Origin: a virus | Virus record (IMG/VR): IMGVR_UViG_3300042301_003334 | Location: 1 to 30,014 of that record | DNA length: 30,014 bases | Direction: 5' to 3' (one strand) | Shown: positions 15,012 to 29,172 of the stretch, one piece after another | How positions within the stretch are numbered: the stretch's first letter is position 1 | Layout of the letters: the number at the start of each line of letters is the position of its first letter | Position numbers and translations under genes: made by a program | Notes under the pieces: generated by a model | The model's input: only the letters and a program-made list of their open reading frames with translations | Database searches by the model: none | Told to the model about the DNA's origin: nothing

Positions 15012-15152
15012 ATGATACAATTAGTATTAATCTTATTTCTTATGTGTGGTTCATTAGGTGCCACAATTTCTAAAATGACAACTGAGTATGGTCCTAAAAG
15101 ACAAAGACAACATACTGAACCCTTAAAAGTTGATAAAGAAGTGATGTCTTAA
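15012..15152 (+). CDS. Small single-span membrane protein, 46 aa
   Basis: MIQLVLILFLMCGSLGATIS is a membrane helix, then a basic/hydrophilic tail of 26 residues. The start is supported by its separate upstream AT-rich region; the stop codon shares TTAA (15149-15152) with the convergent 500-aa gene, repeating the arrangement at bS21. Function unknown; a size typical of phage membrane toxins or inhibitors. Confidence 0.6.
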   Translation: MIQLVLILFLMCGSLGATISKMTTEYGPKRQRQHTEPLKVDKEVMS

Positions 15153-16651
15153 AGCATCATTCTTGAACCTATCAAGAAATTACTTAATATCGGAGCTCCC
15201 GGTGCTGTTGACGTATTAATTTTATAGTTAAAACTTAGACCAAATCTTTTACTTAGTTTATAATCAACTGAACTACCGGCTAAGATACCAACAGTGTTAC
15301 CATAAGTAATTAAACCTGTCACAGTGTTCATACTTGTCCCTGGTGGCATCACAAATATTTGAGGGGAAAGTGTGAGTTTTTTGTTAACGGGGTATGGCTT
15401 AGTCCAAAACGCAACAGCAGAATTACTTACTGTTAAATCAAAACCACCGCTTTGATTTTGTAACATTAGTGAGACAATACCCAAGTTATAACCATATACA
15501 CCATATTTTGAATTTGGAACAATTTTGGTAAATCCACCCAATAACATATAATTCCCTGTTAGATATGCGGATGTTAATGAATAAGAATTGATTGATGTTA
15601 ATTTTCCTTTACTATCTAAATTCATTTTTGTTATACCGCCACTAACCGCGAATTGTTGTAAATTACTCCAAATCATAGTATTCAATGAATAACTTTTATC
15701 ACCCATTAATGAAGATTTACTTAAACCCAAAGACAAAATTGCGGCCCATTCTGTCTGACTTGTCTCTACGACTGATAAATCGGAAGCTATTAGTAATGGA
15801 TTTATTGGCGCTGGTTTTGACTCTTTCTTCTTCTCTTCTTTCTTTTCTTCCTTTTTTTCTTCTTTTTTAGATTCCTCTTTCTTTTCTTCTTTTTTTGATT
15901 CGGATTTTGACTCTTCTTTCTTTTCTTCGGATTTACTTTCCGATTTAGATTCAGACTTTGATTCGGATTTAGTTTCACTCTTAGTTTCTGACTTACTTTC
16001 AGATGAAGATGATGTACTACTTTTACTTTCAGATGAACTGGATGATGAAGAACCACCACCGTTAGATGACGAACTACTCGCTGCAGGTGCGGATGAACCG
16101 CTACTTGGTGCGGGTGGAGGTGTTGCCGCTGTTGCTGCTGCTGAACTTGCAGAGCCACTTGCTGCGGATGATGCTGACGAACTTGCGGCGGATGATGCCG
16201 CACCACTAGCTGCCGTCGATGCGGCCGATGAAGCTGCATTACTTGCCGCGCTACTTGCAGCTTGGGATGCTGCACTACTTGCTGCTTGTGAAGCCGCCGC
16301 ACTTGCCGCCTGTGTGGCTGCTTGTTGTGCCGCCTGTTGTACTGCCTGATTAACCGTTTGTTGGACTGTTTGTTGAACAACAATATTGGTTGGACAACCG
16401 ACTGTTGAATAGGCCAAATATACAGATTGCAACCAAAGCTGCATAGCCCCGCTTTGAACTTCAGCAGGGGTAAAAGACCTCATTTGATTATAAAATGAAA
16501 CAAAGGCGTTCCCATTCACATAAGTGGTAGTAGCAACTTTAACCTCACCTGAACATTTATCGATAAATGTTTGGGTAAATGTTTGTCCACTAACTTTGGA
16601 AGTTAGAAATAAGATAAATAATACACTTAATAACCCTTTTAACTTTTTCAA
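15149..16651 (-). CDS. Exported low-complexity protein, 500 aa, with beta-rich C-terminal domain
   Basis: Start is TTG (16651): the codon before it is TGA, so no other start is possible, and the signal peptide (MKKLKGLLSVLFILFLTSKVSGQ) fits exactly. Parts: 23-90 globular with two Cys (about 32 and 85, possible disulfide); about 91-175 Gln then Ala/Ser repeats (AAS AAS QAASSAAS), probably a long helix; about 177-215 Pro/Ser linker; about 215-290 Ser/Glu/Lys repeats (KKEEKKEE), a charged helix; about 300-500 strand-rich, resembling a small outer-membrane barrel. A stalked surface protein is my reading. No family recognised. Third gene after the 240- and 48-aa genes. Confidence 0.8.
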   Translation of the reverse strand: MKKLKGLLSVLFILFLTSKVSGQTFTQTFIDKCSGEVKVATTTYVNGNAFVSFYNQMRSFTPAEVQSGAMQLWLQSVYLAYSTVGCPTNIVVQQTVQQTVNQAVQQAAQQAATQAASAAASQAASSAASQAASSAASNAASSAASTAASGAASSAASSSASSAASGSASSAAATAATPPPAPSSGSSAPAASSSSSNGGGSSSSSSSESKSSTSSSSESKSETKSETKSESKSESKSESKSEEKKEESKSESKKEEKKEESKKEEKKEEKKEEKKKESKPAPINPLLIASDLSVVETSQTEWAAILSLGLSKSSLMGDKSYSLNTMIWSNLQQFAVSGGITKMNLDSKGKLTSINSYSLTSAYLTGNYMLLGGFTKIVPNSKYGVYGYNLGIVSLMLQNQSGGFDLTVSNSAVAFWTKPYPVNKKLTLSPQIFVMPPGTSMNTVTGLITYGNTVGILAGSSVDYKLSKRFGLSFNYKINTSTAPGAPILSNFLIGSRMML

Positions 16652-16654
16652 TCA

Positions 16655-16801
16655 TTAATAGATTACGTTATCGATTTTATTGATAATTGTGTTCTCCAAT
16701 TCTTCATTAAAGAAATGAGAATAAACCATTACGCCGTCAAAGATTAACGCACAGAATATAAAAGTGGCCACGATACCTGCGACAATATTATAAGTTTTCA
16801 T
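16655..16801 (-). CDS. Small membrane protein, 48 aa
   Basis: ATG at 16801, TAA at 16655; MKTYNIVAGIVATFIFCALIFDG is a membrane helix, then a soluble tail YSHFFNEELENTIINKIDNV. It begins 3 nt after the 240-aa gene's stop and ends 3 nt before the 500-aa gene's TTG start, so all three are likely translated together. Function unknown. Confidence 0.6.
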   Translation of the reverse strand: MKTYNIVAGIVATFIFCALIFDGVMVYSHFFNEELENTIINKIDNVIY

Positions 16802-16804
16802 ATT

Positions 16805-17527
16805 TTATTTTTCAAATATTTTTTTCTTTATCATTCTATCTAAGATTCTTGCACATGCAATATCAAGTGCTTTCTTAGTTGAAATTGAAATTGTTGATTG
16901 ATTAAATTTAACGGGGTCGGCAGTTGCGTCAGATAATAACGTCAATTCTCTTACCGTTTTTGCTTCACCCAATCCCGATGCTCCAAATACTACACCCGTT
17001 TCTGCGTCTGTAAATCTTACTTGTAAACCTAAACGAGTAACCATCATATTTTTAACACCATCTTTTAAATTGATAGTTTCATCTTCACTTACCGAATAAT
17101 CATAACACTCAATTGTAACGAAATACTTAGCCAAGTTTATTTTACCACGTCCATCTAATTTATTTTCAGATATACCCGCTTGTGACGCTTGGAATTGTTT
17201 TACCATACGATTCTTAATTTCTGTCTTATCTTCTGTGAATTTAAAACGATTAAGATTCTCAAGATATTCCATAGAGATATTGGCAACACCAAGTCCGACT
17301 CTTTTTTCTTTAAGTTCAGGATACATTTCATACATCTCATCCGATATTCCGCACTTTAAAATTTGAATTGGTATTTGCGGTCCCTCGTAATCCATGAATT
17401 GGGAAATATCAATTGCGGTTTCAAATGATGCTTTATATTGTTCAGTTTTAGTTGAACCAATAGTTTGAGAAAATCCCAAAAACGGTAGTAATACTACCAA
17501 AATGAGAATAAAAATAAACTTCTTCAT
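16805..17527 (-). CDS. Exported protein, possibly CsgG-like, 240 aa
   Basis: Signal peptide MKKFIFILILVVLLPFLGFSQ, no lipobox. The mature part has the sequence of strands and helices seen in CsgG/LpoB-like proteins: RVGLGVANIS, a stretch with ENRMVKQFQ-type helix, LDGRGKINLAKYFVTIECYDYSV, TRLGLQVRFTDAETGVVFGASG, and a final Ala-rich helix. CsgG forms an outer-membrane secretion pore; here only the fold similarity is argued, and the Cys of the lipoprotein form is absent. It opens its own transcript: terminator, TATTTATA, 13 nt, ATG. Confidence 0.75.
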   Translation of the reverse strand: MKKFIFILILVVLLPFLGFSQTIGSTKTEQYKASFETAIDISQFMDYEGPQIPIQILKCGISDEMYEMYPELKEKRVGLGVANISMEYLENLNRFKFTEDKTEIKNRMVKQFQASQAGISENKLDGRGKINLAKYFVTIECYDYSVSEDETINLKDGVKNMMVTRLGLQVRFTDAETGVVFGASGLGEAKTVRELTLLSDATADPVKFNQSTISISTKKALDIACARILDRMIKKKIFEK

Positions 17528-17540
17528 AATTAATTTTTAT

Positions 17541-17548
17541 TATAAATA
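17541..17548 (-). promoter_or_regulatory. TATTTATA motif of the 240-aa gene
   Basis: Minus strand AGATATTTATAATAAAAA, ending 13 nt before the ATG and just after the T run of the preceding terminator. Confidence 0.52.
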
Positions 17549-17557
17549 TCTTAAAAT

Positions 17558-17581
17558 AAAAAAGGGAGAATTAATCTCCCC
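17558..17581 (-). terminator. Terminator after the 82-aa membrane-protein gene
   Basis: GGGAGA (17564-17569) pairs with TCTCCC (17575-17580) around ATTAA; six T follow on the minus strand. Confidence 0.85.
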
Positions 17582-17586
17582 TTCTT

Positions 17587-17835
17587 TTAACCCTCAGTTT
17601 CGTCCTTCTTTTTACTTGAGAACTTATCTAAGGTGTCGGCACCCATCCCAATGCCTGTTATCAACATAACTGCGTTCACCAAATCGGGTGATGGTGCAAA
17701 ATCTGCGTGAGAAAATGAATTTAATATCATTGTTACGCATAAAAATGTTGCACCTAAAAATGCAATTACCGGTTTTACTGAAATTGAACCTCTTTCATCC
17801 TTAAAGATTTCAATTACCCATTCTTTAAATGTCAT
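17587..17835 (-). CDS. Small two-span membrane protein, 82 aa (holin-like)
   Basis: MTFKEWVIEIFKDERGSISV leads into a membrane helix (about 22-45, PVIAFLGATFLCVTMILNSF), a short polar turn, a second helix (about 52-68) and a charged tail KKKDETEG. Size and topology fit a class II holin, as does its place beside another membrane protein. I cannot separate holin from a generic membrane protein by sequence. Last gene of the operon before its terminator. Confidence 0.65.
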   Translation of the reverse strand: MTFKEWVIEIFKDERGSISVKPVIAFLGATFLCVTMILNSFSHADFAPSPDLVNAVMLITGIGMGADTLDKFSSKKKDETEG

Positions 17836-17865
17836 ATTATTTGTGTTTATATTTGTGTTTGTTTA

Positions 17866-18498
17866 TTACCCTTCCATATCTGTGGTGTCGATATCTTTTA
17901 TCTTACCACAAATTAGGCACTCTTCATCACCATCACCATCAGCATCGCCCCAAACGTGTTGACAATTACGGTGGTCAAAATACTCATCAATTACACCATC
18001 TCCGTCAAAATCTAAACCATCCATTTTACCGTCACCATCTTCATCGATTTCAACACCTACTTTGGTTTGTTTTTCTTCTGATTTTGATACTGTAGGTATA
18101 ACTTCTGTCTCGTTTTTAAACCCACTATTAGATATTGCTTGTGTAAATGATTCAGGTACTATTGGACTATAAGTTTTTTTTTCACCGTCACCACTACCCG
18201 TGTCTGAAAGTGATACACCATCTTCTTCGTCCATTTTCTGAACTAACATTTTATCTTTATCCGTATCTGAGAACCAATAGTCTACAATTTTACCATATGA
18301 ACCAATGAACGCTCCAAGTAATAATAATAGTAATTCTTTCCAAGCTTCATTAATTTCTGCTTTAAATACAATCGCTCCACCGATACCAAATACCGTACCC
18401 ATGAACGTCAATAACACAATAAGTGTCATTTTCCATCTACGTGTCATCATCTGGTTTAGAAGGTCTCTAAATCCCGTGTTTTCTTGTTGTTGTGCCAT
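17866..18498 (-). CDS. Holin-like membrane protein with EF-hand-like acidic repeats, 210 aa
   Basis: N-terminal part: two hydrophobic spans (24-46 and 54-70) followed by GSYGKIVDYWFSDTDKDK (66-83), similar to phage holins whose second span ends in a YWFGSS-type motif. C-terminal part is soluble and has calcium-loop-like motifs DEDGDGKMDG (152-161), DFDGDGVIDE (163-172) and DADGDGDEEC (185-194), plus Cys179-x-His181 and Cys194-x-x-Cys197, a possible zinc site. Holins rarely carry such a tail, so a calcium-sensitive pore is an interesting possibility. Operon partner of the 107-aa and 82-aa genes. Confidence 0.68.
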   Translation of the reverse strand: MAQQQENTGFRDLLNQMMTRRWKMTLIVLLTFMGTVFGIGGAIVFKAEINEAWKELLLLLLGAFIGSYGKIVDYWFSDTDKDKMLVQKMDEEDGVSLSDTGSGDGEKKTYSPIVPESFTQAISNSGFKNETEVIPTVSKSEEKQTKVGVEIDEDGDGKMDGLDFDGDGVIDEYFDHRNCQHVWGDADGDGDEECLICGKIKDIDTTDMEG

Positions 18499-18515
18499 AT
18501 TATGTATTTGTTAAA

Positions 18516-18839
18516 TTACCAAGCTGCTGGTTTTTCGGTAAACTCATCACTTTCCTTCTTTTTAGGCTTTGGTGCGGGTGCCGGTGCAGGTGCGGTTTGT
18601 GCCGTTCCGTTTCCACCACCTTTGTTGATGATTACGGTTTTGCCTGCAGCTTGTTGTTGAGTTTGGTTTTGAGTAATGTTTATTACAGGTGCCGCTGCAG
18701 GTGCTGCTGCCGGTTGTTCTCCACCACCGAACATTTGTGAACCTAACCAGGCTCCTCCTGCAGTAACAATCGTTCCTACCGTCCCGATTAGTGTTTTTAC
18801 TAATCCTGACATTGTTCCATCATTTGATTCTTCTGACAT
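18516..18839 (-). CDS. Membrane protein with Ala/Pro tail, 107 aa
   Basis: After a short polar start there is one hydrophobic span (about 12-36, LVKTLIGTVGTIVTAGGAWLGSQMFGG). Then come two Ala/Pro-rich linkers (PAAAPAAAP and PAPAPAPKPKKK) around a middle part INITQNQTQQQ. This design fits a small envelope-spanning protein such as a spanin-like element, or one carrying a flexible arm; it has no lipobox. It lies in the putative lysis cluster with the two holin-like genes. Confidence 0.62.
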   Translation of the reverse strand: MSEESNDGTMSGLVKTLIGTVGTIVTAGGAWLGSQMFGGGEQPAAAPAAAPVINITQNQTQQQAAGKTVIINKGGGNGTAQTAPAPAPAPKPKKKESDEFTEKPAAW

Positions 18840-18855
18840 TTTTTTTTAATTTAAT

Positions 18856-19230
18856 TTAGTTTATTTTATTGAAATCCGTAATTCCTAATTGAACACCTTT
18901 TACATCAAATAAGGCGATTCTATAAGCTGAAGATGGTAAAGCGGTTGTGTAAATTTTTAAAATGTTATCACCTACATTTACTTCTACTTCTTCTTTAGAA
19001 ACTACTCTATTTGCGATGTCTGTAATTTTAATTACCGCTTTACCGGCAAAATCACTTTTAACGTTCATAGAAACCTCATTTGTCACAAAAGGATTGGATA
19101 CTTTAATACCTACCTTATTTGTGATTTGTAATTCAGGTGTTACTTGTTGTGTACTTGGAAGAATTTCATTATCCATGTTACATCCTGCAAGTGTTAGTAC
19201 TCCGAATACTATTATAAATACCTTTTTCAT
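18856..19230 (-). CDS. Lipoprotein resembling a T9SS sorting domain, 124 aa
   Basis: Signal peptide with lipobox LAGC (Cys at 17). The mature part resembles Por-secretion tail domains: SNPFVTNEVSMNV (PNP-like start), AVIKITDIANRVVSKEE, a turn GDNILKIYTTALPSSAYRIALFDVKG. In Bacteroidota these domains sit at the C-terminus of proteins exported by the type IX system; here the domain is nearly the whole protein and is lipid-anchored. It may be a decoy or surface adaptor; that is inference. The neighbour 113-aa lipoprotein is a paralogue. Confidence 0.75.
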   Translation of the reverse strand: MKKVFIIVFGVLTLAGCNMDNEILPSTQQVTPELQITNKVGIKVSNPFVTNEVSMNVKSDFAGKAVIKITDIANRVVSKEEVEVNVGDNILKIYTTALPSSAYRIALFDVKGVQLGITDFNKIN

Positions 19231-19245
19231 TTGTTTTGTGTTTGT

Positions 19246-19587
19246 TTAGTTAATTATTATTTTTGTTTTATTAATTTCAGTTTTGTTTACGTCACTTAAA
19301 ACCAACGTTAAACGTCCCTTTGGTAATGTGTTTGTATATATTTTTTTTACGTTTTCACCGCTCTGACCTTTAAATCTTTCCCTACTTATCACTTGTCCAC
19401 TGGTGTCACTTATTAATGACAATGTGTATGTGCCTGCCGATGGTAAGTCAAAATGTATTGATTGTGCATTTACTGCCACACTTTCAGTTACACTAAAAAT
19501 ATCATCTTTAGCCAACACTTCAGGTAGTGGTAATTCTGGTGTGGAACAACCCATTAAAATAAACGATAAAAATATTATTTTTTTCAT
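19246..19587 (-). CDS. Lipoprotein paralogue with beta-sandwich domain, 113 aa
   Basis: Lipobox MGCS (Cys at 14). The mature domain parallels the 124-aa protein: IHFDLPSAGTYTLSLISDTSGQVISRERF, then NVKKIYTNTLPKGRLTLVLSDVNKTE (compare NILKIYTTALPSSAYRIALFDV). Likely also a T9SS-tail-like sandwich, without the PNP start. ATG overlaps the stop of the 759-aa gene (TAATG), so translation is coupled. It probably binds the same partner as its neighbour. Confidence 0.72.
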   Translation of the reverse strand: MKKIIFLSFILMGCSTPELPLPEVLAKDDIFSVTESVAVNAQSIHFDLPSAGTYTLSLISDTSGQVISRERFKGQSGENVKKIYTNTLPKGRLTLVLSDVNKTEINKTKIIIN

Positions 19588-21866
19588 TAGTCTATTTTTA
19601 TTTTTAATTGTGTACCATTTCTATTTACCGCATCGGTCATTGATAAAGACGTTAAACCTAACGTGTCAAACGTCCCTATTAACGGTAAAAATGTTATTTT
19701 ATATTCTGTGGTCTTATCCAATGTGGTAGAACCATCTGAGATGAATGAGCCTATTTTTACAAAATTACCCATATCTTTTCCAAAATTAGTTGGGGTTCCT
19801 TTTGTTGTGAATTCTGCTTTTTCATATTTTAATACGGTATTATCATAAGTTAAATGGAATTCAGTCCCAACCACTTCTTGTTGTAATGGGTCCATCGATA
19901 TTGTAACGACTAATTTACCACCTATTAATTCACCCACAATGTCTGCGTTAATTTGATTAGTAACTACGGAATTCATAGTTCTAATTGAATTAGTTGCAAG
20001 ACCACTAACAGATTGTTGCGCTGAGTGCGATAAGTTAACATCACCAACCCAAGTCACATTTACATTGTATGTATTGTTTAATCCACTCATCGTGAATGGA
20101 ATTAAGTTACGAGTACTGTTAAATTGGGTTGCCCAATTTGATTTAGTTATCGCATCGTAATCCGATTTATTATATAACTTCATCAAATATGTTAATGCTG
20201 AATATTGTGTTAATGGTTGAACACCTGTCAAATGTTGTAATAATCTGTATGTGTCATTCTCATTAAATATACCATTACCATCCACGTCAGCATTCATATA
20301 TTGTAATCCTGATGTAAATTCGTTACCACTCTCATTACCAAATAATCCACCATTTGATAATTCCTTAAATGCAATGAACACATCCGATACGGTTACAATA
20401 CTATTATATAAACTATTTAACTCTGTTTGTGAATTTGCGGTTATTTCAATCCCATGCGGTTTATATATTGTTGCAGGAGAAAATGTATATTCGGCACCAA
20501 TACCATACCACCCATCTTGTAATCTAAAAGAACTTTGAAACGAACTTGTTGCAACCTTATTTGTAAGATTAATATTCCCCGGTATAACCCATTGTTTCCA
20601 CCATCCATTAAAATCCATAGGTGTAATCGGTCCCTCATACACATCAAACAACTTTATGTATTTTATGTCATTTAGATTTATACCCGTACCTTGAAATTCC
20701 CTTTCATCAATTTGTAATCTATGTCCATTTCTTGATGTTTCATAAGGATTAATGATTGACCATTCTACTTGTCCGGGTGTTACAAACGCTTTTAACCCAT
20801 CACCCACCTTTACAGTATCCAACAAACTTGTCAAATCAACTTTACCCAAACCACTTAGTTGTCTGGCAGTTCCGTTTACCACATCCCAATTATTATTTGT
20901 ATATGTGTATCCTTTTGCTGAAAATTTGGTTTCATCTACGTTAGTACCGAAATCAACATTGAATGATGCTCTTAATACTTGTCCGTTTGAGTGAGTAACA
21001 CTATTAGTATAGAATTCTGTAAATGTCGCATCATCAGGATTAGTCCAAGTTCCATATTCAATTACATAAGGGTTATTCCAATTGTTTGATAAATCATTCC
21101 ATTGGTTACCATTCCATTTTGTTACTGCATAGTTCTCACTACCATTACTACCATTTGGTTCACCCTGTGCCCAGTTATTATACACACCAGGAATATTACC
21201 CGCCAATTGTCCATTTTGAGTTTTCATTACAGTTCCCTTTTCAGGTCCCGCATCGATTACCCATCTTCCATCAACAACTTCATCCGTTGCTGCAAACCAT
21301 ATATTAGTTTGTGGTACGTTAGCCGCAATAAATGCATCTTCCGATGCCGATGTTATTGTCACCAAATATCCCGTCTGTCCTTTGAATGTTGTTAATAACG
21401 ATGCAGCTCTTGCTCCTGTGTATGTTGTACCTGTTGATATTGGTCTATAAAAGTGTCCGTTTACACCATTGTAAAAATACCCAACAGGATTGACAGTTGC
21501 CGCTACTGATAATTGAACATTACCTACTACCGAACCTGTGTTTATTTTTAGAGATGCTAATGCGTTATTAATATTAACCATTGTACCTGTTACCACTAAA
21601 CGAGTTTTATTACCGCTCAATGTAAATCCACTTGCTGCGGTTAAACCTGTTGTGGTGGTTAAATAGAATGTAGTATTTGTTGATGGGTTTATTAAACTGA
21701 TTGATGCTAACAAAGTGGATGTTGCATTAAATCCACTTAATTGAAATCCACTTCCGTCTTGTGCAGTTGTGGATGGAATAAACGATTTAGAGTCCGGAGC
21801 AGATACACTCTGTCCGAACCCTAAAAATGAAATTAGTAAAAAAAATATTACTAATAATTTCTTCAT
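19587..21866 (-). CDS. Exported C-type lectin/dockerin/cohesin-like protein, 759 aa
   Basis: Signal peptide (about 1-19, ending GFGQ). 20-125: cadherin/Ig-like sandwich with the repeat phrase VTGTMVNINNALASLKI. 135-275: C-type lectin fold (GHFYRPISTGTTYTGARAAS, TITSASEDAFI) with calcium/sugar motifs EPN (236-238) and WND (256-258), and no visible Cys pair. 524-548: dockerin/EF-hand-like NADVDGNGIFNENDTYRLLQ. 603-615: WVGDVNLSHS. 640-759: cohesin-like sandwich (GGKLVVTISM, TEFHLTYDNTVLKYEKAEF). Sugar binding on the cell surface is likely; EPN favours mannose-type ligands in known lectins. Paralogue upstream shares the C-terminal half. Confidence 0.82.
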   Translation of the reverse strand: MKKLLVIFFLLISFLGFGQSVSAPDSKSFIPSTTAQDGSGFQLSGFNATSTLLASISLINPSTNTTFYLTTTTGLTAASGFTLSGNKTRLVVTGTMVNINNALASLKINTGSVVGNVQLSVAATVNPVGYFYNGVNGHFYRPISTGTTYTGARAASLLTTFKGQTGYLVTITSASEDAFIAANVPQTNIWFAATDEVVDGRWVIDAGPEKGTVMKTQNGQLAGNIPGVYNNWAQGEPNGSNGSENYAVTKWNGNQWNDLSNNWNNPYVIEYGTWTNPDDATFTEFYTNSVTHSNGQVLRASFNVDFGTNVDETKFSAKGYTYTNNNWDVVNGTARQLSGLGKVDLTSLLDTVKVGDGLKAFVTPGQVEWSIINPYETSRNGHRLQIDEREFQGTGINLNDIKYIKLFDVYEGPITPMDFNGWWKQWVIPGNINLTNKVATSSFQSSFRLQDGWYGIGAEYTFSPATIYKPHGIEITANSQTELNSLYNSIVTVSDVFIAFKELSNGGLFGNESGNEFTSGLQYMNADVDGNGIFNENDTYRLLQHLTGVQPLTQYSALTYLMKLYNKSDYDAITKSNWATQFNSTRNLIPFTMSGLNNTYNVNVTWVGDVNLSHSAQQSVSGLATNSIRTMNSVVTNQINADIVGELIGGKLVVTISMDPLQQEVVGTEFHLTYDNTVLKYEKAEFTTKGTPTNFGKDMGNFVKIGSFISDGSTTLDKTTEYKITFLPLIGTFDTLGLTSLSMTDAVNRNGTQLKIKID

Positions 21867-21867
21867 A

Positions 21868-23493
21868 TTATTCCACTATTAAATTTACCTTGTTTCCTTT
21901 AGCATCTACCGCATCTGATAACACAAAGAAGAATAAACCCGCAGTATTTGTTAAAGGAGTCTTTGGTGTAAATACTAATTTGTAAGGTGTACCAACTTTA
22001 ATTCTTGATGTCTTTAATTGGTCAATTGAACCAAAAGTTAATCTATTGTCTTTATGTGTTGAGAAGTTAGTAATAGTGGCGCCCGCATCAAATATTACAT
22101 TATCTAATGTTAATTTTGATTCGTCATAATTCATGATTACCTGTAAACCCGCCAAACCTTCTTTAGTAAGATTTGTCGTTAAAACAACTTTACCACCTTC
22201 AATTTTAGATACAACATTTAATGTTGCCGTTTCCAATGTTTTACTTTGATATGATAAAGGTGCAATTGTTCTGTTTGCAAATCCAACTGAATTTGTGAAT
22301 TGTCCCGCGGTTATTCTACTTGCAATTTGAGTTGGGTCTGACGAGTGTGACCAGTTTAAGTCGCCACCCCACGCAAATACGGCATGAACCTCTTGAATGG
22401 GTTGTGTGATTAAAACTCTATTCTTAACAACACCATCTAACCAACTTTGATTTAATAAACCACTATACCATCTTACCGATGTTGAAGTTGATGTGGGGAT
22501 AGAAGCGACGGTACCCATGTTTTGTCCCATTACATGTGCAAATAAAGCGTATGAATCTCCTTCACCAAATGCGTTTGCGTTAGTGGTTACTTTACCAACT
22601 TTCTTTTCTAATGTAGGTAATGTAAAGAAATTTGCAGTTCCGCTGATATCTGTTTGTGAGTGACCTAAGAATGCCTTATATGCGTCTGATACAGTTACAA
22701 TGTTATTCATCCACGCTTTGGTCATTGCCGGTCCAACAAATACGCCGACCGAATCACCAACCTTTACTTGTGTTGTAAATAATGCTTCACCACTTGCATC
22801 CAATGGTAATTGTGCAACAGGAGGTAATGCCCAATCAATAGTACCGTCCGTTTTCAATTTCATTAACTGAACATTATGGTCAGTAATATCATATCCTTGT
22901 GGATAAAGTACTTTTACCTTAAATTGTGACGTGTTACCAACAACATTACTTAATGATGACCATCCACCACCGTAGATTGTACCAACATTAGCACCTGTTG
23001 TGTCAGTACCTGTAGCCAAATCCACTTTAAAAATGTTGTTATATGCATTTTGGTCTTTTAAGATGTACTTCTGTGTTGCAATAACACCACTTATCGAAGC
23101 GTCAGCTCTTTGAACCGTTAATTGACCAATGTTCCAATCAGGACTTACCGTATAGTTCCACGGAGTTAGACCATATTGAACATTTAAATCATTATCACTT
23201 GCACCACCGTTGAAGATGAACTTATAGTTACTCCAACCTGTATAGAATGTCTGAGCCGAAGAACCTTGATTAAATACGGTAGAAACATAACCCAACGCCT
23301 TGTTATTGAATTGGTATCTAAACCAAAGATAACGAGGATTCTTAATTACCTGACCTTTTGATAAGGTATACTTTACTGTTATTGTATCACCAACCTTTAA
23401 TCCCGTTGATGGTGTTAAAGATTGTGAAATTGTTAATTGTCCAAAACTTACAAAGGACATTAACATTAGAGAGAGGATTAATAATTTTTTCAT
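21868..23493 (-). CDS. Exported protein with cohesin-like C-terminus, 541 aa
   Basis: Signal peptide (MKKLLILSLMLMSFVSFGQ). 20-250: strand-rich regions, with Trp and Gly (WNYTVSPDWNIGQLTV). The rest aligns with the 759-aa protein: NNIVTVSDAYKAFLGHS, a degraded dockerin-like NANAFGEGDSYALFAHVMGQ, WGGDLNWSHSSD and a C-terminal cohesin-like module (GGKVVLTTNL, IMNYDESKLTLDNVIF). It lacks the lectin part. Operon: ATGA overlap with the 169-aa gene upstream, 1-nt gap to the 759-aa gene downstream. Probably a surface partner of the lectin protein. Confidence 0.8.
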   Translation of the reverse strand: MKKLLILSLMLMSFVSFGQLTISQSLTPSTGLKVGDTITVKYTLSKGQVIKNPRYLWFRYQFNNKALGYVSTVFNQGSSAQTFYTGWSNYKFIFNGGASDNDLNVQYGLTPWNYTVSPDWNIGQLTVQRADASISGVIATQKYILKDQNAYNNIFKVDLATGTDTTGANVGTIYGGGWSSLSNVVGNTSQFKVKVLYPQGYDITDHNVQLMKLKTDGTIDWALPPVAQLPLDASGEALFTTQVKVGDSVGVFVGPAMTKAWMNNIVTVSDAYKAFLGHSQTDISGTANFFTLPTLEKKVGKVTTNANAFGEGDSYALFAHVMGQNMGTVASIPTSTSTSVRWYSGLLNQSWLDGVVKNRVLITQPIQEVHAVFAWGGDLNWSHSSDPTQIASRITAGQFTNSVGFANRTIAPLSYQSKTLETATLNVVSKIEGGKVVLTTNLTKEGLAGLQVIMNYDESKLTLDNVIFDAGATITNFSTHKDNRLTFGSIDQLKTSRIKVGTPYKLVFTPKTPLTNTAGLFFFVLSDAVDAKGNKVNLIVE

Positions 23494-23999
23494 AGTTTTT
23501 CTGTTAATTTGTTAATTAAAGTTTGACATGTTTTTTTAATTGAGGATGACAGTGCCTGTTGATTTACAGTTTCACTTGCTTCTCCGGTTATTATTGTTGA
23601 TGTTGAGATTTCCGAACTCGATTCCTCAGCCACATATTCCTTTATTTTTTTTCCTTCTTTGTTTTTGATTATACCCTTAATGACCACTAAGGTTTCTTCC
23701 ACATCGGAATGGAAAACTGATACGTTACGTTTTGTTCTATTAACGTCAAAATAGAGAATCTCAGCACTGATTACGTAATCAGCGGATTCTTGTGTTTCTA
23801 CAATGTCTAAATTTTTATCTTGTAAAATTTCTTGGAAGATATTTTTGACCCCGAAAGCAAAGTCTCGGTTACCTGTAAATTTTCCAATTTTAATTTTATT
23901 TTCGACACCGGAAACAAATACGGTTTGTGCATCTGCGCTATATGATATAGACGCAAAGAAATAGCTTATAAATAAGAGAGAGGTTTTTAAATTTATCAT
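23490..23999 (-). CDS. Exported protein, possible CsgG/LpoB-like fold, 169 aa
   Basis: Signal peptide MINLKTSLLFISYFFASISYSADAQ. Mature region starts with strand KIKIGKFTGNRDFAFGVKNIFQEIL, then DIVETQESADYVISAEILYFDV, a strand-turn-strand RNVSVFHSDVEETLVVIKGIIKN and a C-terminal helix QALSSSIKKTCQTLINKL. The order resembles LpoB/CsgG-like domains that act at the outer membrane. First gene of the 8-kb minus-strand exported-protein operon; TATTTATT lies 5 nt before the ATG. Confidence 0.72.
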   Translation of the reverse strand: MINLKTSLLFISYFFASISYSADAQTVFVSGVENKIKIGKFTGNRDFAFGVKNIFQEILQDKNLDIVETQESADYVISAEILYFDVNRTKRNVSVFHSDVEETLVVIKGIIKNKEGKKIKEYVAEESSSEISTSTIITGEASETVNQQALSSSIKKTCQTLINKLTEKL

Positions 24000-24421: not shown

Positions 24422-24494
24422 GTCTATGTGGCGCAACGGTTAGCGCTCCGACCTGATACGTCGGAGGTTGGTGGTTCGAATCCATCCATAGACA
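24422..24494 (+). tRNA. tRNA-Ile(GAT)
   Basis: Acceptor GTCTATG/CATAGAC perfect; anticodon loop CTGATAC in stem CCGAC/GTCGG; T arm with TTCGAAT. A73. Confidence 0.92.
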
Positions 24495-24499
24495 CATTT

Positions 24500-24572
24500 G
24501 GAGACGTAGCTCAGTTGGTAGAGCACCGGCCTGAAGAGCCGGGTGTCGGTGGTTCGAATCCACCTGTCTCCA
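24500..24572 (+). tRNA. tRNA-Phe(GAA)
   Basis: Acceptor GGAGACG/TGTCTCC (one G-U); anticodon loop CTGAAGA in stem CCGGC/GCCGG; standard D and T arms. Confidence 0.94.
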
Positions 24573-24578
24573 CATATC

Positions 24579-24652
24579 GACCTCTTAGCTCAGTTGGTTA
24601 GAGCACCTCACTTTTAATGAGGGAGTCCCGCGTTCGAGTCGCGGAGGGGTCA
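24579..24652 (+). tRNA. tRNA-Lys(TTT)
   Basis: Acceptor GACCTCT/AGGGGTC; anticodon loop CTTTTAA in stem CCTCA/TGAGG; T loop TTCGAGT. Confidence 0.93.
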
Positions 24653-24653
24653 C

Positions 24654-24726
24654 AATACGAATTATCCCCCGTTCCAGACGTGAAAACAATGTGGTTAGAA
24701 TCCGCTACGGGGGCAATGTTCGTATT
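24654..24726 (+). ncRNA. Truncated tRNA-like minihelix inside a longer stem
   Basis: CCCCCGT (24666-24672) and ACGGGGG (24707-24713) form a 7-bp acceptor-like stem; inside is a T-arm-like GTGG-TTAGAAT-CCGC. There is no room for D and anticodon arms. An 8-bp stem AATACGAA/TTCGTATT (24654-24661, 24719-24726) closes the whole. May be a tRNA remnant or an active small RNA. Confidence 0.6.
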
Positions 24727-24729
24727 ATT

Positions 24730-24802
24730 CACTTCCTTGGTGCAATGGTAGCATACCGGATTCCAAACCCGTTGATTGCAGTTCGAGTCTGTAAGGAAGT
24801 GC
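24730..24802 (+). tRNA. tRNA-Trp(CCA)
   Basis: Acceptor CACTTCC/GGAAGTG perfect; anticodon loop TTCCAAA (anticodon CCA), with imperfect outer stem pairs; T arm TGCAG-TTCGAGT-CTGTA. Confidence 0.85.
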
Positions 24803-24859
24803 TAAACTATAATATTATGAAAAAACAATTCGACATGCATTAGTTAACCCTAATGTAAA

Positions 24860-25057
24860 ATGAAAAACAAAGAAGAACGAGTAAAACAAATGCAACGAAT
24901 CTATGACTATTGTCTGATTTGTAATAAAAGAAATGGAAGTTGGTATTATGATTGCCATCCATCATCATTTGGAGCAAAGAGACACGGAAGTGGAAAGATT
25001 GTAAGAGTAAGAGAGTGTAGAAGTTGGAAACACAACAGAAAGACTCAATGGAAGTAA
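24860..25057 (+). CDS. Small Cys-containing basic protein, 65 aa
   Basis: ATG-started frame between tRNA-Trp and tRNA-Arg. YCLICNKRNGSWYYDC has a CxxC knuckle (Cys18, Cys21) and two further Cys (32, 53), then a basic tail ending KHNRKTQWK. It could be a small zinc-binding, nucleic-acid-associated protein. The frame is compact and lies in the only free space between two tRNAs, which supports it. Function unknown. Confidence 0.6.
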   Translation: MKNKEERVKQMQRIYDYCLICNKRNGSWYYDCHPSSFGAKRHGSGKIVRVRECRSWKHNRKTQWK

Positions 25058-25062
25058 AAGTT

Positions 25063-25134
25063 GGTCTCTTGGTGTAACGGATAACACGGAACACTACGGA
25101 TGTTTTAATAAAGGTTCGAATCCTTTAGAGACCT
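25063..25134 (+). tRNA. tRNA-Arg(ACG)
   Basis: Acceptor GGTCTCT/AGAGACC perfect; anticodon loop CTACGGA in stem GAACA/TGTTT; T loop TTCGAAT. Confidence 0.9.
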
Positions 25135-25137
25135 CAG

Positions 25138-25189
25138 TGTTCACAAAATCTGATTGTTCACGGACCGTGAACAGACAAAAAAAGTGAAC
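25138..25189. repeat. Nested GTTCAC/GTGAAC inverted repeats between tRNAs
   Basis: TGTTCACGG-A-CCGTGAACA (25155-25173) is a perfect 19-nt palindrome. An outer GTTCAC (25139-25144) and GTGAAC (25184-25189) add a second pair around it. It could be an operator or a processing hairpin. Confidence 0.7.
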
Positions 25190-25194
25190 AAAAA

Positions 25195-25268
25195 GTCAGG
25201 TTGTCCGAGATGGTTAGGAGCTGGTCTGCAAAATCAGTTGTACGTTGGTTCGAGTCCAACACTTGACT
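25195..25268 (+). tRNA. tRNA-Cys(GCA)
   Basis: Acceptor GTCAGGT/ACTTGAC (one G-U); anticodon loop CTGCAAA in stem CTGGT/ATCAG; T arm GTTGG/CCAAC. Confidence 0.9.
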
Positions 25269-25270
25269 CG

Positions 25271-25344
25271 GTGGTTGTGGTCTAATGGTAAGACTGGGGT
25301 TTGTGGTACCTCCAATAAGAGTTCGATTCTCTTCAATCACACCA
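25271..25344 (+). tRNA. tRNA-His(GTG), CCA encoded
   Basis: Acceptor GTGGTTG/CAATCAC; anticodon loop TTGTGGT in stem GGGGT/ACCTC; a G precedes position 1 (possible G-1). A73 and CCA (25342-25344) are in the DNA. Confidence 0.88.
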
Positions 25345-25349
25345 CATAT

Positions 25350-25418
25350 TGCGGGGAGGAAGGTTTCCCGACCGGTCTCATAAGCCGTGTCTCCCGAGTT
25401 CGATTCTCGGCCCCGCAA
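25350..25418 (+). tRNA. tRNA-Met(CAT)
   Basis: Acceptor TGCGGGG/CCCCGCA; anticodon loop CTCATAA; T arm CCGAG-TTCGATT-CTCGG. D arm is short. The acceptor resembles initiator tRNA, but position 1-72 is T-A, not a mismatch, so initiator or elongator is undecided. Confidence 0.82.
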
Positions 25419-25461
25419 CAAAATATTTTTAAAGGTATTTTTTTATTAAAAAAACTTTATC

Positions 25462-25612
25462 TATATTTGTCTCAAGATAATGGTTTTCACCGCTAAACGG
25501 ATGTCGACAATCCATAGTGGAGTCTGAAATCATAACCCTCTGCCGAGCGCTCGTAAAACTACGATTAAGCAGTCAAGAATGGAACGAAACGGGTATTCCA
25601 TCATTATCTTAA
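25462..25612 (+). ncRNA. Structured RNA A (about 137 nt) with its own -7 element
   Basis: TATATTTG (25462-25469) is followed 5 nt later by a 9-bp closing stem AAGATAATG/CATTATCTT (25474-25482, 25602-25610). Inside: CCG-CTAAA-CGG or GGAT/ATCC (alternatives), CTGC/GCAG around a TCGTA-AAAC-TACGA hairpin, and ATGGAA/TTCCAT (25579-25601). No ORF of note. Abuts tRNA-Thr. Family not recognised. Confidence 0.62.
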
Positions 25613-25613
25613 A

Positions 25614-25689
25614 GGCTCCCTTAACTCAGTTGGCCAGAGTAGCTGATTTGTAATCAGCCTGTCGGCGGTTCGAATCCGTCAGGGAGCTC
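25614..25689 (+). tRNA. tRNA-Thr(TGT)
   Basis: Acceptor GGCTCCC/GGGAGCT (G1-U72); anticodon loop TTTGTAA in stem GCTGA/TCAGC; T arm GGCGG-TTCGAAT-CCGTC. Confidence 0.9.
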
Positions 25690-25880
25690 AACAAGTGACG
25701 ACTGTGGTGTAACCCCACGGTATATAAAACCCAAAATGGTCCTGTTGAAGCCGGAATAGTCATACAGGTCAGGGGAGAGTTACTATAAGCGGGGAGTAAT
25801 TAACCCATTTGCGAAAATGTAACCACCAAGTGTAGAGATATATTTGGTTATGATGTACGGAAGGGTACAAAAAACTTGTT
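25690..25880 (+). ncRNA. Structured RNA B (about 190 nt), GNRA tetraloop
   Basis: Closed by AACAAGT/ACTTGTT (25690-25696, 25874-25880). Six further helices: GTGG/CCAC (25704-25718), CCTGT/ACAGG (25741-25768), TTACT/AGTAA (25780-25799), CATTT-GCGA-AAATG (25806-25819), TAACCA/TGGTTA (25820-25850), TGTAC/GTACA (25854-25869). No ORF. A multi-branched RNA inside the tRNA array; not recognised as tmRNA, RNase P or a known riboswitch. Confidence 0.65.
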
Positions 25881-26000
25881 AATTTATTAATTTATATTCT
25901 GATGTTTTTTTAAATAATTTTGTTTTACTTAAACAAATTTAGTTATAAAAGAAGTTGAAGAAATGTAAACATCGATATAGAATGTAAATTAATAGAGTTT

Positions 26001-26087
26001 GATTACGTGAGGTGTGTCGCATAACTAATGCAATCCCCTAATAGGGACTAATGTAAGATTAAGATTCTTACTACACCAAACGTGATT
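26001..26087 (+). ncRNA. Cloverleaf-like RNA C upstream of tRNA-Glu
   Basis: Outer stem GATTACGT/ACGTGATT (two G-U), then GGTGT/ACACC; three arms: GCAT-AACTA-ATGC, CCCT-AAT-AGGG, and TAAGA-TTAAGAT-TCTTA (5 bp + 7-nt loop like a T arm). It resembles a tRNA without the usual T-loop, D-loop GG or anticodon loop. The stretch 25881-26000 before it is AT-rich; nothing recognised. Confidence 0.55.
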
Positions 26088-26096
26088 GAATTATTT

Positions 26097-26168
26097 GCCC
26101 CTATCGACAAGCGGTTAAGTCACGTCCCTTTCACGGATGAGTCACGGGTTCGATTCCCGTTGGGGGTA
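26097..26168 (+). tRNA. tRNA-Glu(TTC)
   Basis: Acceptor GCCCCTA/TGGGGGT with wobble pairs; anticodon loop CTTTCAC in stem CGTCC/GGATG; T arm ACGGG-TTCGATT-CCCGT. Confidence 0.88.
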
Positions 26169-26184
26169 CACTAAATAATATATT

Positions 26185-26439
26185 ATGTTAGAACAACTAT
26201 TAGAGTACTTTCAGGATGAAGAATTCCTAAAAGCTGACGGATTCGATGAAGCCGTTATCGGTGTTGATGAACGTTCAATGCGATTAATTTATTCGGTAAC
26301 AAGATGTATCGAGTTATTGATGGTTAATCATGATATGCCGATGGAAGAAGCCATTGAGTACTTCGACTTTAATGTTAGAGGTGCTTACATGGGTGATAAA
26401 ACACCAATTTGGTGTGACGATGCTTTTATGATGTATTGA
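26185..26439 (+). CDS. Conserved phage protein, 84 aa
   Basis: Acidic and helical: FLKADGFDEAVIGVDERSMRLIYS, MEEAIEYFDFNVRGAYMGDKTPIW. The final phrase EAIEYFxFNVxGAYxGxKTPI is one I associate with small proteins widespread in large marine phages; the function is not known. Starts 16 nt after tRNA-Glu and is followed 1 nt later by a lipoprotein gene. Confidence 0.78.
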   Translation: MLEQLLEYFQDEEFLKADGFDEAVIGVDERSMRLIYSVTRCIELLMVNHDMPMEEAIEYFDFNVRGAYMGDKTPIWCDDAFMMY

Positions 26440-26440
26440 T

Positions 26441-26629
26441 ATGAAAAAAACAATATTCTTATTATTGGTAATTGTAACACTAACAAGTTGTTTTACCTAT
26501 GTACCATTAACCCATCGTTTTTACCCACGTCAATATAATAAGAGACCTTATCACCACTTAGGTATCAACGGTTATAGAATACCACAACAAAGATTTAAAA
26601 GAGCATTACCTCAAAGAAGAGGTAGATAA
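26441..26629 (+). CDS. Small basic lipoprotein, 62 aa
   Basis: Signal peptide with lipobox LTSC (Cys at 17). The mature 45 residues are strongly basic and aromatic (FYPRQYNKRPYHH, RFKRALPQRRGR), so the protein could bind anionic surface polymers or nucleic acid at a membrane. Starts 1 nt after the 84-aa stop; terminator follows. Confidence 0.72.
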   Translation: MKKTIFLLLVIVTLTSCFTYVPLTHRFYPRQYNKRPYHHLGINGYRIPQQRFKRALPQRRGR

Positions 26630-26631
26630 AG

Positions 26632-26657
26632 ACTTGACTAATACTCAAGTTTTTTTT
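26632..26657 (+). terminator. Terminator after the lipoprotein gene
   Basis: ACTTGA (26632-26637) pairs with TCAAGT (26645-26650), then T8. Confidence 0.82.
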
Positions 26658-26670
26658 ATATTACGGAATT

Positions 26671-27018
26671 ATGTTAGATTTAAAAGAATTGTTAATTGTT
26701 CTCGGTCTTGCGGTTGGTGGTTCGGCACCAAATCAAGAAATTATATTTTATCGACAAAAATTAGGTGAAGAACTCATGATGGAGCAAAAACTTAAAAGTG
26801 AGATAAAATCGTTAGAATATAAGAAGATGTGGGAAGATGTAAATGCCGATAGTAAAACGGATTTCGCTTCCAAATGGTTAAAAGATAAAAAATCTGAAGA
26901 CAAACTAACAAAGTCAAAAACAGATTTGGCATTGACTAAAAAGAAAATTAAAGTGTTAAAACAAATCATTGAAAAGGACTCCTTAGATAAGTTACCTCCT
27001 GTGATTCAGACACTTTAA
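26671..27018 (+). CDS. Hypothetical protein with N-terminal hydrophobic segment and coiled coil, 115 aa
   Basis: MLDLKELLIVLGLAVGGSAP could be a short membrane anchor; the remaining 95 residues are a Lys/Glu/Leu coiled coil (EQKLKSEIKSLEYKKM, LTKSKTDLALTKKKIKVLKQ). Resembles small spanin-like or envelope-tethered helical proteins, but no lipobox. No family recognised. It lies 13 nt after a terminator. Confidence 0.68.
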   Translation: MLDLKELLIVLGLAVGGSAPNQEIIFYRQKLGEELMMEQKLKSEIKSLEYKKMWEDVNADSKTDFASKWLKDKKSEDKLTKSKTDLALTKKKIKVLKQIIEKDSLDKLPPVIQTL

Positions 27019-27028
27019 AAAAATAAGA

Positions 27029-27036
27029 TATTTATA
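27029..27036 (+). promoter_or_regulatory. TATTTATA motif of the 139-aa outer-membrane protein gene
   Basis: GATATTTATAAATAAAAAAAA: the octamer ends 13 nt before the ATG, on the plus strand here, so the orientation follows the gene. Confidence 0.52.
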
Positions 27037-27049
27037 AATAAAAAAAATT

Positions 27050-27469
27050 ATGAAAAAAATGTTATTTGTAGTTGCAATGCTCGGAATAAGCTTTGCTTCT
27101 AACGCACAGGAATTGTTTGGTTCCGCAACTAATAAAGGTATGGATGGTTATCTTACCGGTGGTTACATCAAAAAAGGATGGGGAGCCTATGTAGGTTTCA
27201 AATATGATGCCGACCCAATGGTTAGTACCAAAACTGGTAGCTTTGATAAAACCATGAAATTCGGTGTCATTCGTATGTTCGCAAGTGAAAGAATGATGAT
27301 GGGTGTAGGTATTCAACCTGTTGACAATGTAAACAAACCTAACGTGTGGGTTGGTTATGCACCGTTGAAATCGGAAGGACTAAAAATATGGGTTATTGGT
27401 AATCTAGTAGGTTCTAATTTTACTCCGGGTCTTGGTTTAACTTATAAACTATCCCAAATTAATTTTTAA
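27050..27469 (+). CDS. Small exported beta-barrel-like protein, 139 aa
   Basis: Signal peptide MKKMLFVVAMLGISFASNAQ. The mature 119 residues alternate hydrophobic and polar with many Gly and aromatics (GGYIKKGWGAYVGFKY, VWVGYAPL, GLGLTYKLSQINF) and end in Phe, as outer-membrane barrel proteins do. With about 8 strands it could be a small barrel blocking receptors or a pore. No homologue recognised. Confidence 0.72.
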   Translation: MKKMLFVVAMLGISFASNAQELFGSATNKGMDGYLTGGYIKKGWGAYVGFKYDADPMVSTKTGSFDKTMKFGVIRMFASERMMMGVGIQPVDNVNKPNVWVGYAPLKSEGLKIWVIGNLVGSNFTPGLGLTYKLSQINF

Positions 27470-27472
27470 AAA

Positions 27473-27503
27473 TTGACTATCAAATAAAACTTTTGTATAT
27501 TTG
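27473..27503 (+). promoter_or_regulatory. Host-type promoter of the 34-aa transcript
   Basis: TTG (27473-27475), 20-nt spacer, TATATTTG (27496-27503). Confidence 0.75.
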
Positions 27504-27520
27504 TATATACTTATTAGAAA

Positions 27521-27625
27521 ATGAAGAATTTATTAACAATACCGTCGCTTAGTTTAAACCCGTCATATAATGATAATGGGAGAGGCGTGCAAACGTTAAA
27601 AAGTTCGGATATAATATTAGGATAG
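27521..27625 (+). CDS. Candidate leader peptide, 34 aa
   Basis: ATG to TAG; ends TTA GGA TAG, like the 33-aa frame at 24151 (ATA GGA TAG). Lies between a strong host-type promoter and a terminator, in a transcript of about 170 nt. Could be a short peptide or RNA; coding is unproven. Confidence 0.42.
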   Translation: MKNLLTIPSLSLNPSYNDNGRGVQTLKSSDIILG

Positions 27626-27646
27626 TAAACAAAACTAAAAATAAAG

Positions 27647-27682
27647 AAACCCGAACGACTTAAAAAATTGTTCGGGTTTTTT
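27647..27682 (+). terminator. Terminator of the 34-aa transcript
   Basis: AAACCCGAAC (27647-27656) pairs with GTTCGGGTTT (27670-27679), then T run; perfect 10-bp stem. Confidence 0.9.
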
Positions 27683-27708
27683 GTTTTAAAAAATTTTACA
27701 TATATTTG
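27681..27708 (+). promoter_or_regulatory. Host-type promoter of the boxB/boxA leader
   Basis: TTG (27681-27683), 17-nt spacer, TATATTTG (27701-27708); the TTG sits just after the T run of the preceding terminator. Confidence 0.62.
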
Positions 27709-27716
27709 TAAAACAG

Positions 27717-27756
27717 TTCACCATAGAGATGGTGAAAAATGTTCTTTGACATTGTG
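27717..27756 (+). promoter_or_regulatory. boxB-like hairpin plus boxA (antitermination leader)
   Basis: Hairpin TTCACCAT-AGAG-ATGGTGAA (27717-27736, 8 bp) begins about 9 nt after the -7 element. It is followed by TGTTCTTTGACATTGTG (27740-27756), like rRNA-leader boxA. The order hairpin then boxA matches rrn/nut leaders. Confidence 0.6.
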
Positions 27757-27768
27757 AGAAAAAATGGG

Positions 27769-27807
27769 TAAACATGAATTAATATTTTTCATCGTGTTTA
27801 CTTTTTT
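27769..27807 (+). terminator. Candidate terminator after the boxA leader
   Basis: GTAAACA and TGTTTAC pair at the ends of a longer imperfect hairpin; six T follow. It may be what boxA allows polymerase to pass. Confidence 0.5.
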
Positions 27808-27831
27808 AAAAAATTGTTTATATTTATTAAT

Positions 27832-28302
27832 ATGAGATATAAACACACAAAAGAAAAATTAGAAATCGCCATAAAAAAATCACTATCAATAGCAGGTGTT
27901 TGCCGAGAATTGGAAATGAGACCATGTGGTGGTAATTATAAAACACTCCATTCAAAAATTACAGAATGGAACATTGACACATCGCATTTTACCGGTGCCG
28001 CTTGGAACCAAGGAAGTAAATTTAAACCATTTGGAAAAAAATACGACCTATGCGATGTGTTAATAAAAAATTCACCATATAAAACGACTAATTCATTAAA
28101 AAAACGTTTATTTGATGAAAAAATAAAAACAAAAGAGTGTGAAGAATGTGGAATAAATGAATGGAACGGTAAACCAATAACATTAGAACTTGACCACATA
28201 AATGGTGACAATACCGATAATAGAATTGAAAATCTTAAAATTTTATGTCCAAACTGTCATAGTCAAACGCACACCTTTAGAAACAAAAAAAGATTCCAAT
28301 AG
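27832..28302 (+). CDS. HNH endonuclease, 156 aa
   Basis: Start at ATG 27832; an in-frame TTG 18 nt upstream is less likely. N-terminal 50 residues form a helix-turn-helix-like region (SIAGVCRELEMR). C-terminal HNH: Cys103/Cys106 and Cys139/Cys142 zinc knuckles, LELDHINGDNTDNRIENL with His122, and NCHSQTH. Likely a free-standing homing endonuclease cutting DNA in a tRNA region of related phages. Its last 10 nt overlap the acceptor stem of the next tRNA. A TATTTATT lies 3 nt before the ATG. Confidence 0.9.
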   Translation: MRYKHTKEKLEIAIKKSLSIAGVCRELEMRPCGGNYKTLHSKITEWNIDTSHFTGAAWNQGSKFKPFGKKYDLCDVLIKNSPYKTTNSLKKRLFDEKIKTKECEECGINEWNGKPITLELDHINGDNTDNRIENLKILCPNCHSQTHTFRNKKRFQ

Positions 28303-28790: not shown

Positions 28791-28795
28791 AAATT

Positions 28796-28867: not shown

Positions 28868-28873
28868 CAATAT

Positions 28874-28946: not shown

Positions 28947-28951
28947 CACAC

Positions 28952-29023: not shown

Positions 29024-29028
29024 CAACC

Positions 29029-29101: not shown

Positions 29102-29104
29102 CAT

Positions 29105-29155: not shown

Positions 29156-29172
29156 TATAAAAAATATTTAGG

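Follow-up and report, generated by a model that had tools for sequence, protein, structure and literature searches.

Cohesin-like, dockerin-like and C-type lectin modules in a conserved operon of Bacteroidota phages: a candidate surface display system

The described systems that come closest to the locus reported here are the cellulosome, the type A cargo of the T9SS and the curli operons of phages. A partial curli operon is carried by pelagimyophages and by Melnitz, and the role suggested for it is 'sibling capture' or lysis timing (PMC7029224, PMC9004378). In the open-access literature we found no description of phage cohesin–dockerin systems or of phage-encoded T9SS cargo. The locus that we analyzed lies in a 30,014-base IMG/VR virus record, the whole of which is called the window here, and in which portal and large terminase genes are present. 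The operon is located about 5 kb from the packaging genes, and its features are as follows.

15149–23999, minus strand: the operon, with the transcription order p169, p541, p759, p113, p124, p107, p210, p82, p240, p500
23490..23999, minus strand: p169, first operon gene; exported protein by hydropathy/lipobox scan
21868..23493, minus strand: p541, scaffoldin-like; signal peptide, cohesin fold, middle, degenerate dockerin, GDLNWSHS, cohesin fold
22936..23442, minus strand: p541 N-terminal cohesin fold (aa ~18-186; AF2 fold)
22519..22707, minus strand: p541 degenerate dockerin-like segment (aa ~263-325; canonical Ca loop in 0/73 homologues)
22342..22365, minus strand: p541 GDLNWSHS motif (aa 377-384; pattern in 73/73 homologues)
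21871..22236, minus strand: p541 C-terminal cohesin-like domain (aa 420-541; homology to p759, Foldseek)
19587..21866, minus strand: p759; signal peptide, C-type lectin head, beta region, dockerin-like segment, GDVNLSHS, cohesin fold
21021..21497, minus strand: p759 C-type lectin domain (aa 124-282; Pfam, AF2 fold, GEPN and WND)
20217..20414, minus strand: p759 dockerin-like segment (aa ~485-550; sub-threshold Dockerin_1)
20253..20288, minus strand: p759 Ca loop DVDGNGIFNEND, of canonical type (aa 527-538; 70/70 homologues have a canonical loop)
20022..20045, minus strand: p759 GDVNLSHS motif (aa 608-615; G608 and D609 invariant in A1)
19590..19958, minus strand: p759 C-terminal cohesin fold (aa 637-759; AF2 fold; Pfam in relatives)
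19246..19587, minus strand: p113, lipoprotein and p124 paralogue; only weakly similar to Por_Secre_tail; covariation with the p759 C-terminus
18856..19230, minus strand: p124, lipoprotein; weakly T9SS-CTD/DUF3244-like domain; covaries with p541
17587..18839, minus strand: p82, p210 and p107, small membrane or hydrophobic proteins
16805..17527, minus strand: p240, exported; the operon marker with the widest conservation; possibly CsgG-like
15149..16651, minus strand: p500, exported; stalk of low complexity, and an end that is a putative outer-membrane beta-barrel (by eye)

Some features of the surroundings and of the smaller genes are recorded here in their own right. Sixteen tRNA genes adjoin the operon within 5.5 kb (24422-29961). 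The stalk of p500 (15149-16651) is a long Ala/Ser-rich and then Lys/Glu-rich stretch before the putative outer-membrane beta-barrel end. In p210 (17866-18498), DxDGDG repeats and a C-x-H...C-x2-C motif (EIDEDGDGKMDGLDFDGDGVIDEYFDHRNCQHVWGDADGDGDEECLICGKI), which are conserved in the related contig L234, come after a membrane segment; p210 may be a second operon protein that binds Ca or a metal.

A first-pass annotation had placed the 759-aa and 541-aa proteins in 19587-23493, and both open reading frames were found there, p759 at 19587-21866 and p541 at 21868-23493 on the minus strand. It had also suggested a C-type lectin head, and this was borne out for p759. Pfam Lectin_C matched p759 at 5.4e-6, above the cut-off, and residues 124–282 of the AF2 model resembled C-type lectins with a Z of 14.5; the model was built with 37 homologues and has a mean pLDDT of 80.8, much of the lectin domain being at about 53–79 per 10-residue block. 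That is, p759 has the CTLD fold together with the EPN and WND motifs by which a C-type lectin is recognized. The GEPN and WND sugar/Ca motifs were kept in 68 of the 70 p759 homologues. In C-type lectins these motifs go with mannose-type Ca-dependent binding.

The C-terminal end of p759, which had been called cohesin-like, indeed has a cohesin fold: residues 637-759 of the AF2 model matched cohesin with a Z of 14.3 and an rmsd of 2.2 over 125 residues. At the level of sequence the window proteins stay below the curated cut-off of Pfam Cohesin (PF00963), p541 having 12.3 bits vs 24.1, and the cut-off was exceeded in relatives (gp015, L147 and L145). Matches at E<0.1 occurred in 14/37 members of the p759 family and 18/48 of the p541 family, with E values of 3.6e-5 and 4.3e-5 in the best relatives of the two families. 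The heads of the p759 family vary on this base. Lectin_C was found in most members and LCCL, PA14 or GLEYA matches in some, with PA14-type heads in two p759 homologues; the head can thus be exchanged while the dockerin–cohesin base stays constant. A search of the region 15.0–24.5 kb for a lectin diversity-generating template repeat gave no clear template/variable repeat pair. In one lectin-dockerin relative (L145:9220-10965), a Laminin_G_3 domain is apparently inserted within the C-type lectin domain.

The last ~285 residues of p541 and p759 are paralogous (BLASTP 2e-16, profile-profile 1.8e-24), and within this part the modules follow the same order, as the first-pass annotation had stated. 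What it had overlooked is a further cohesin fold at the N-terminus of p541: in the AF2 model, which was built with 48 homologues and has a mean pLDDT of 87.6, residues 17-186 matched cohesins with a Z of 13.6 and an rmsd of 2.1-2.2 over 131 residues. By Foldseek, the p541 model matched many solved cohesins. The C-terminal cohesin-like domain of p541 is the slowest-changing module of the two proteins. For both models, lectins and/or N- or C-terminal cohesins took up the VIA-align lists; the lack of dockerin chains in these lists carries no meaning.

The dockerin-like motif of p759 was confirmed. The loop DVDGNGIFNEND is followed by a helix as in dockerins, a canonical loop is present in all 70 homologues counted, and the strict EF pattern was obtained in 0/2000 shuffles of p759. 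Dockerin_1 (PF00404) remained sub-threshold, with 15.2 bits in p759 and 19.3 in L147 against a cut-off of 22.9, and it appeared at E<0.1 in 12 of 37 p759 members. Dockerins of type I have two canonical Ca-binding loop-helix repeats; p759 has one such loop, its first loop being non-canonical, and p541 has none. The decay of the p541 loop, which the first-pass annotation had read as one partner losing its dockerin, is real, and because none of the 73 p541 homologues has a canonical loop, the loss is old and fixed.

Both proteins also contain an invariant Asp in a V-x-V-S-D context upstream (D495 of p759 and D270 of p541), and the GDxNxSHS segment, likewise pointed out before, ~110 residues downstream; the latter is found in a looser form in 70/70 p759 homologues, and in 73/73 p541 homologues. 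D495 and D270 would correspond to position 12 in a first loop that locally lacks its Asp-rich half, and GDxN may complete a split Ca site by providing its first half. The lectin proteins of the type found in the phage immuto, described below, have a contiguous loop (e.g. DVNNDSRFTVSD) without GDVN. The fused scaffolds of other relatives have both the loop and GDxN, and thus the complementarity is not clean.

We then consider how widely the operon is distributed. The genes p541, p759, p113 and p124 lay together on one strand in 47/47 distinct contigs with enough downstream sequence, the median gap between p541 and p759 being 0 nt; p240 was present in 98% of these contigs and p169 lay upstream in 89%. 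Homologue loci in IMG/VR numbered 46 for p759 and 71 for p541, on contigs of up to 288 kb, and the p240 family had at least 584 confirmed loci in IMG/VR contigs. A tblastn search of INPHARED with p541 and p759 at E 1e-3 gave no match, PHROGs gave no informative match for the operon, and the sole operon matches in NCBIfam were below the cut-off. When 84,980 species genomes were scanned for the p240 family, 2 loci were obtained, on MAG contigs of Flavobacterium (12.6 kb) and Bacteroidetes (254 kb), and both had the same operon. These two contigs look like phage contigs binned with bacteria, which is consistent with a phage-specific operon. The operon is carried by a large, mostly uncultured group of viruses infecting Bacteroidota.

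One relative is in culture. Flavobacterium phage vB_FspM_immuto (NC_055915), which was found via the portal and p240 only, has in gp013-gp018 the same modules and gene neighbours as the window operon; the products are annotated only as lectin or cohesin domain proteins. The lectin and a dockerin loop are on a protein of their own, gp013, and the scaffold is split into the following gp014 and gp015. The latter has matches above the cut-off to Cohesin (5.9e-9) and Por_Secre_tail (2.4e-8), so that it ends in a T9SS sorting domain; gp016, gp017 and gp018 are the counterparts of p107, p240 (54%) and p500, respectively. Among viral structures, the best match to the p541 model was a protein of the fused kind described next, from an uncultured phage and with the name 'Secretion system C-terminal sorting domain'; the second and third best had the lengths of gp014 and gp015.

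In L122, L123, L144–L150 and L235, gp014 and gp015 are fused into one protein with the order cohesin, dockerin, GDxN, cohesin, T9SS sorting domain (in L149 the protein runs off the contig within the last domain). In the dockerin–cohesin part, the profile of the fused protein matched p759 with a probability of 96% (E 3.3e-9) and p541 more weakly (60%, E 8.9e-5). L234, whose domains were assigned by eye from BLAST alignments, is an intermediate: its single cohesin–dockerin–cohesin protein lacks a sorting domain, and a single lipoprotein comes after it; the clade of the window has two scaffold-like proteins and two lipoproteins. It is likely that the arrangement of the relatives, that is, cohesin–dockerin–cohesin with a T9SS sorting domain and a separate lectin, is the original form. 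A gene for a peptidoglycan-binding/GH19-like endolysin (named by eye) adjoins the operon at L146:296-1114, L234:9133-9966 and L123:12013-12609.

The Pfam scan found no C-terminal T9SS sorting domain in p541 or p759, and the matches of the window's p113 and p124 to Por_Secre_tail were below the cut-off only. The two lipoproteins are paralogues (profile comparison, E 4.5e-21). In the p124 family weak similarity to DUF3244 was found in 34/36 members and to Por_Secre_tail in 24/36, and in the p113 family such weak domain similarity was rarer (4/37). Direct profile comparison of p113 and p124 with the sorting domain of the fused proteins was not convincing. We suspect from these weak similarities that p113 and p124 may represent a detached sorting-domain-like anchor.

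In Capnocytophaga, C-X-K-(D/E)2-X is the optimal signal for the export of lipoproteins to the surface, and the signals of Flavobacterium and Bacteroides are related to it (PMC5080379). After the lipid-carrying Cys, C-x-K-(D/E)2 was present in 29/59 homologues of p124 and 5/60 of p113, and the looser C-x-K in 50/59 and 50/60, respectively. The p124 of the window reads CNMDNE, and the strict signal thus belongs to the family and not to the window copy.

In order to compare the modules across contigs, we calculated the correlation of their distances over 51 contigs, a measure that partly reflects linkage. The cohesin end of p759 covaried with p113 (r 0.75), and that of p541 with p124 (r 0.43), although p759 and p113 lie in between. 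The end of p541 showed almost no correlation with the adjacent p759 lectin (r 0.08) or with the p759 cohesin (r 0.10). In a taxon bootstrap, the value for the p541 end and p124 was equal to or below that for the p541 end and the p759 cohesin in 0.2% of samples, and the value for the p759 end and p113 was equal to or below that for p113 and p124 in 1%; the comparison of p541 end–p124 with p759 end–p124 was not clear (9.8%). The covariation suggests the scaffold–lipoprotein pairs p759-p113 and p541-p124. It does not suggest a heterodimer of p541 and p759, the assembly that the first-pass annotation had put forward as one possibility: over the 51 contigs, the p759 dockerin showed low and no specific covariation with the p541 cohesins (r 0.17-0.32).

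The first-pass annotation had proposed, as one possibility, self-assembly into a fibre carrying the lectin. In a virion, p541 and p759 would form a tail or head fibre with the lectin as its host-binding tip. Such a fibre would agree with the modular swapping of heads (mostly Lectin_C, in some members LCCL, PA14 or GLEYA) and with the distance of ~5 kb to the packaging genes. However, a scan for hydropathy and lipobox motifs, used here in place of a trained predictor such as SignalP, found a signal peptide, a lipobox or a hydrophobic/TM segment in each of the ten operon ORFs, the lipoproteins included, whereas the same scan found no such features in the ten packaging/head-side ORFs (0.4–10.6 kb) or in the protease. 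Two small ORFs lie between the protease and the operon, and one of them (13829-14410) has a signal-peptide-like start; its product looks exported and begins in a GDSL-like manner (YIGDSLT). Tailed phages assemble in the cytoplasm, and exported proteins are therefore unlikely to be parts of the virion. The T9SS sorting domain on the scaffold of a relative also speaks against a fibre, and we consider the fibre very improbable.

A self-assembling polymer at the cell surface, in which proteins with their own dockerin-like and cohesin ends would polymerize head-to-tail as a counterpart of curli, with p240 as a CsgG-type pore, is in our opinion unlikely. It would explain why the dockerin and cohesin of p759 show the strongest covariation of all (r 0.76), but linkage alone predicts this within one gene. 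The cohesin folds at both ends of p541 would suit a polymer, and the partial curli operon of pelagimyophages and Melnitz offers a precedent (PMC7029224, PMC9004378). The hhalign alignment of p240 with CsgG was full-length and colinear, with a score of 24.8 vs 22.6 for the best decoy in 60 shuffles, but its probability was ~4%, and Pfam CsgG (PF03783) did not match p240, giving in these phages one chance-like match inside p541. p240 is possibly a homologue of CsgG. The candidate p169 was ruled out as CsgE/F by profile comparison. A coat that serves solely to mask receptors, that is, to block the adsorption of other phages, would fit the export, the lectin and the conservation of the operon, and avoidance of coinfection has been proposed for genes of the host-recognition island in pelagimyophages (PMC7029224). 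Adhesion fits these data equally well, however, and we regard masking as the sole function as doubtful.

Taken together, we think that the best explanation is probably a phage-encoded, Ca-dependent, surface-anchored cohesin–dockerin display of lectin on infected Bacteroidota cells. The operon would be expressed in the infected cell and its products exported to the envelope. There, p541 would serve as a scaffoldin-like protein (cohesin, dead dockerin, cohesin) and p759 would present the lectin on a dockerin-plus-cohesin base, the partners being held together by Ca-dependent cohesin–dockerin contacts. The tie to the outer membrane would most likely be made by p113 and p124, two small lipoproteins among whose relatives the surface-export signal of Bacteroidota is partly present. 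Related phages would do the same job by the T9SS sorting domain at the scaffold C-terminus, and their lectin belongs to a dockerin protein of its own. As a result, the infected cell would be coated with a mannose-type C-type lectin. The likely benefit would be that the infected cell adheres to siblings or particles, or that its receptors are hidden from other phages.

We further speculate, with somewhat less assurance than for the display itself and on about even terms at most, that a cellulosome-like machine is built by tailed Bacteroidota phages outside the infected cell. In such a machine, interchangeable lectin or other adhesive heads would be docked by Ca-dependent dockerins onto a scaffold anchored by the T9SS of the host or by phage lipoproteins; in some of the dockerins, two distant chain regions would together make up the Asp-rich Ca loop. 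If the display reading is right, phages use a modular display to reshape the surface of the cells that they infect. The idea can be tested directly with the cultured phage immuto.

Compared with the cellulosome, the operon shares the cohesin fold (Z 13-14 against solved cohesins), a canonical dockerin Ca loop, a multi-cohesin scaffold and, in its relatives, a domain for anchoring at the cell surface. It differs in that it is borne by a phage, has one canonical Ca loop only, contains a dead dockerin in p541 and carries a lectin as cargo. No match to a glycoside hydrolase, and so no dockerin-bearing polysaccharide-degrading enzyme, was found among the operon proteins. In function the operon would resemble the scaffold of a small cellulosome, but because of this lack of an enzyme, of two canonical dockerin loops and of a Dockerin_1 score above the cut-off, we do not class it as a cellulosome. 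Compared with type A cargo of the T9SS, the scaffold of the relatives has the Por_Secre_tail domain (PF18962) above the cut-off, whereas this domain is absent from p541 and p759 and has a weak likeness in the p113 and p124 families. With the phage curli operons (HTVC008M and Melnitz) it has in common that a phage encodes an exported operon of adhesive type, with small membrane proteins and large exported repeat proteins. The curli operons have curlin-repeat subunits and clear CsgF/CsgG, whereas the window operon has cohesin and dockerin modules and a putative CsgG; if the proposed display is true, it would be a non-curli counterpart to the unexplained curli operons of pelagiphages.
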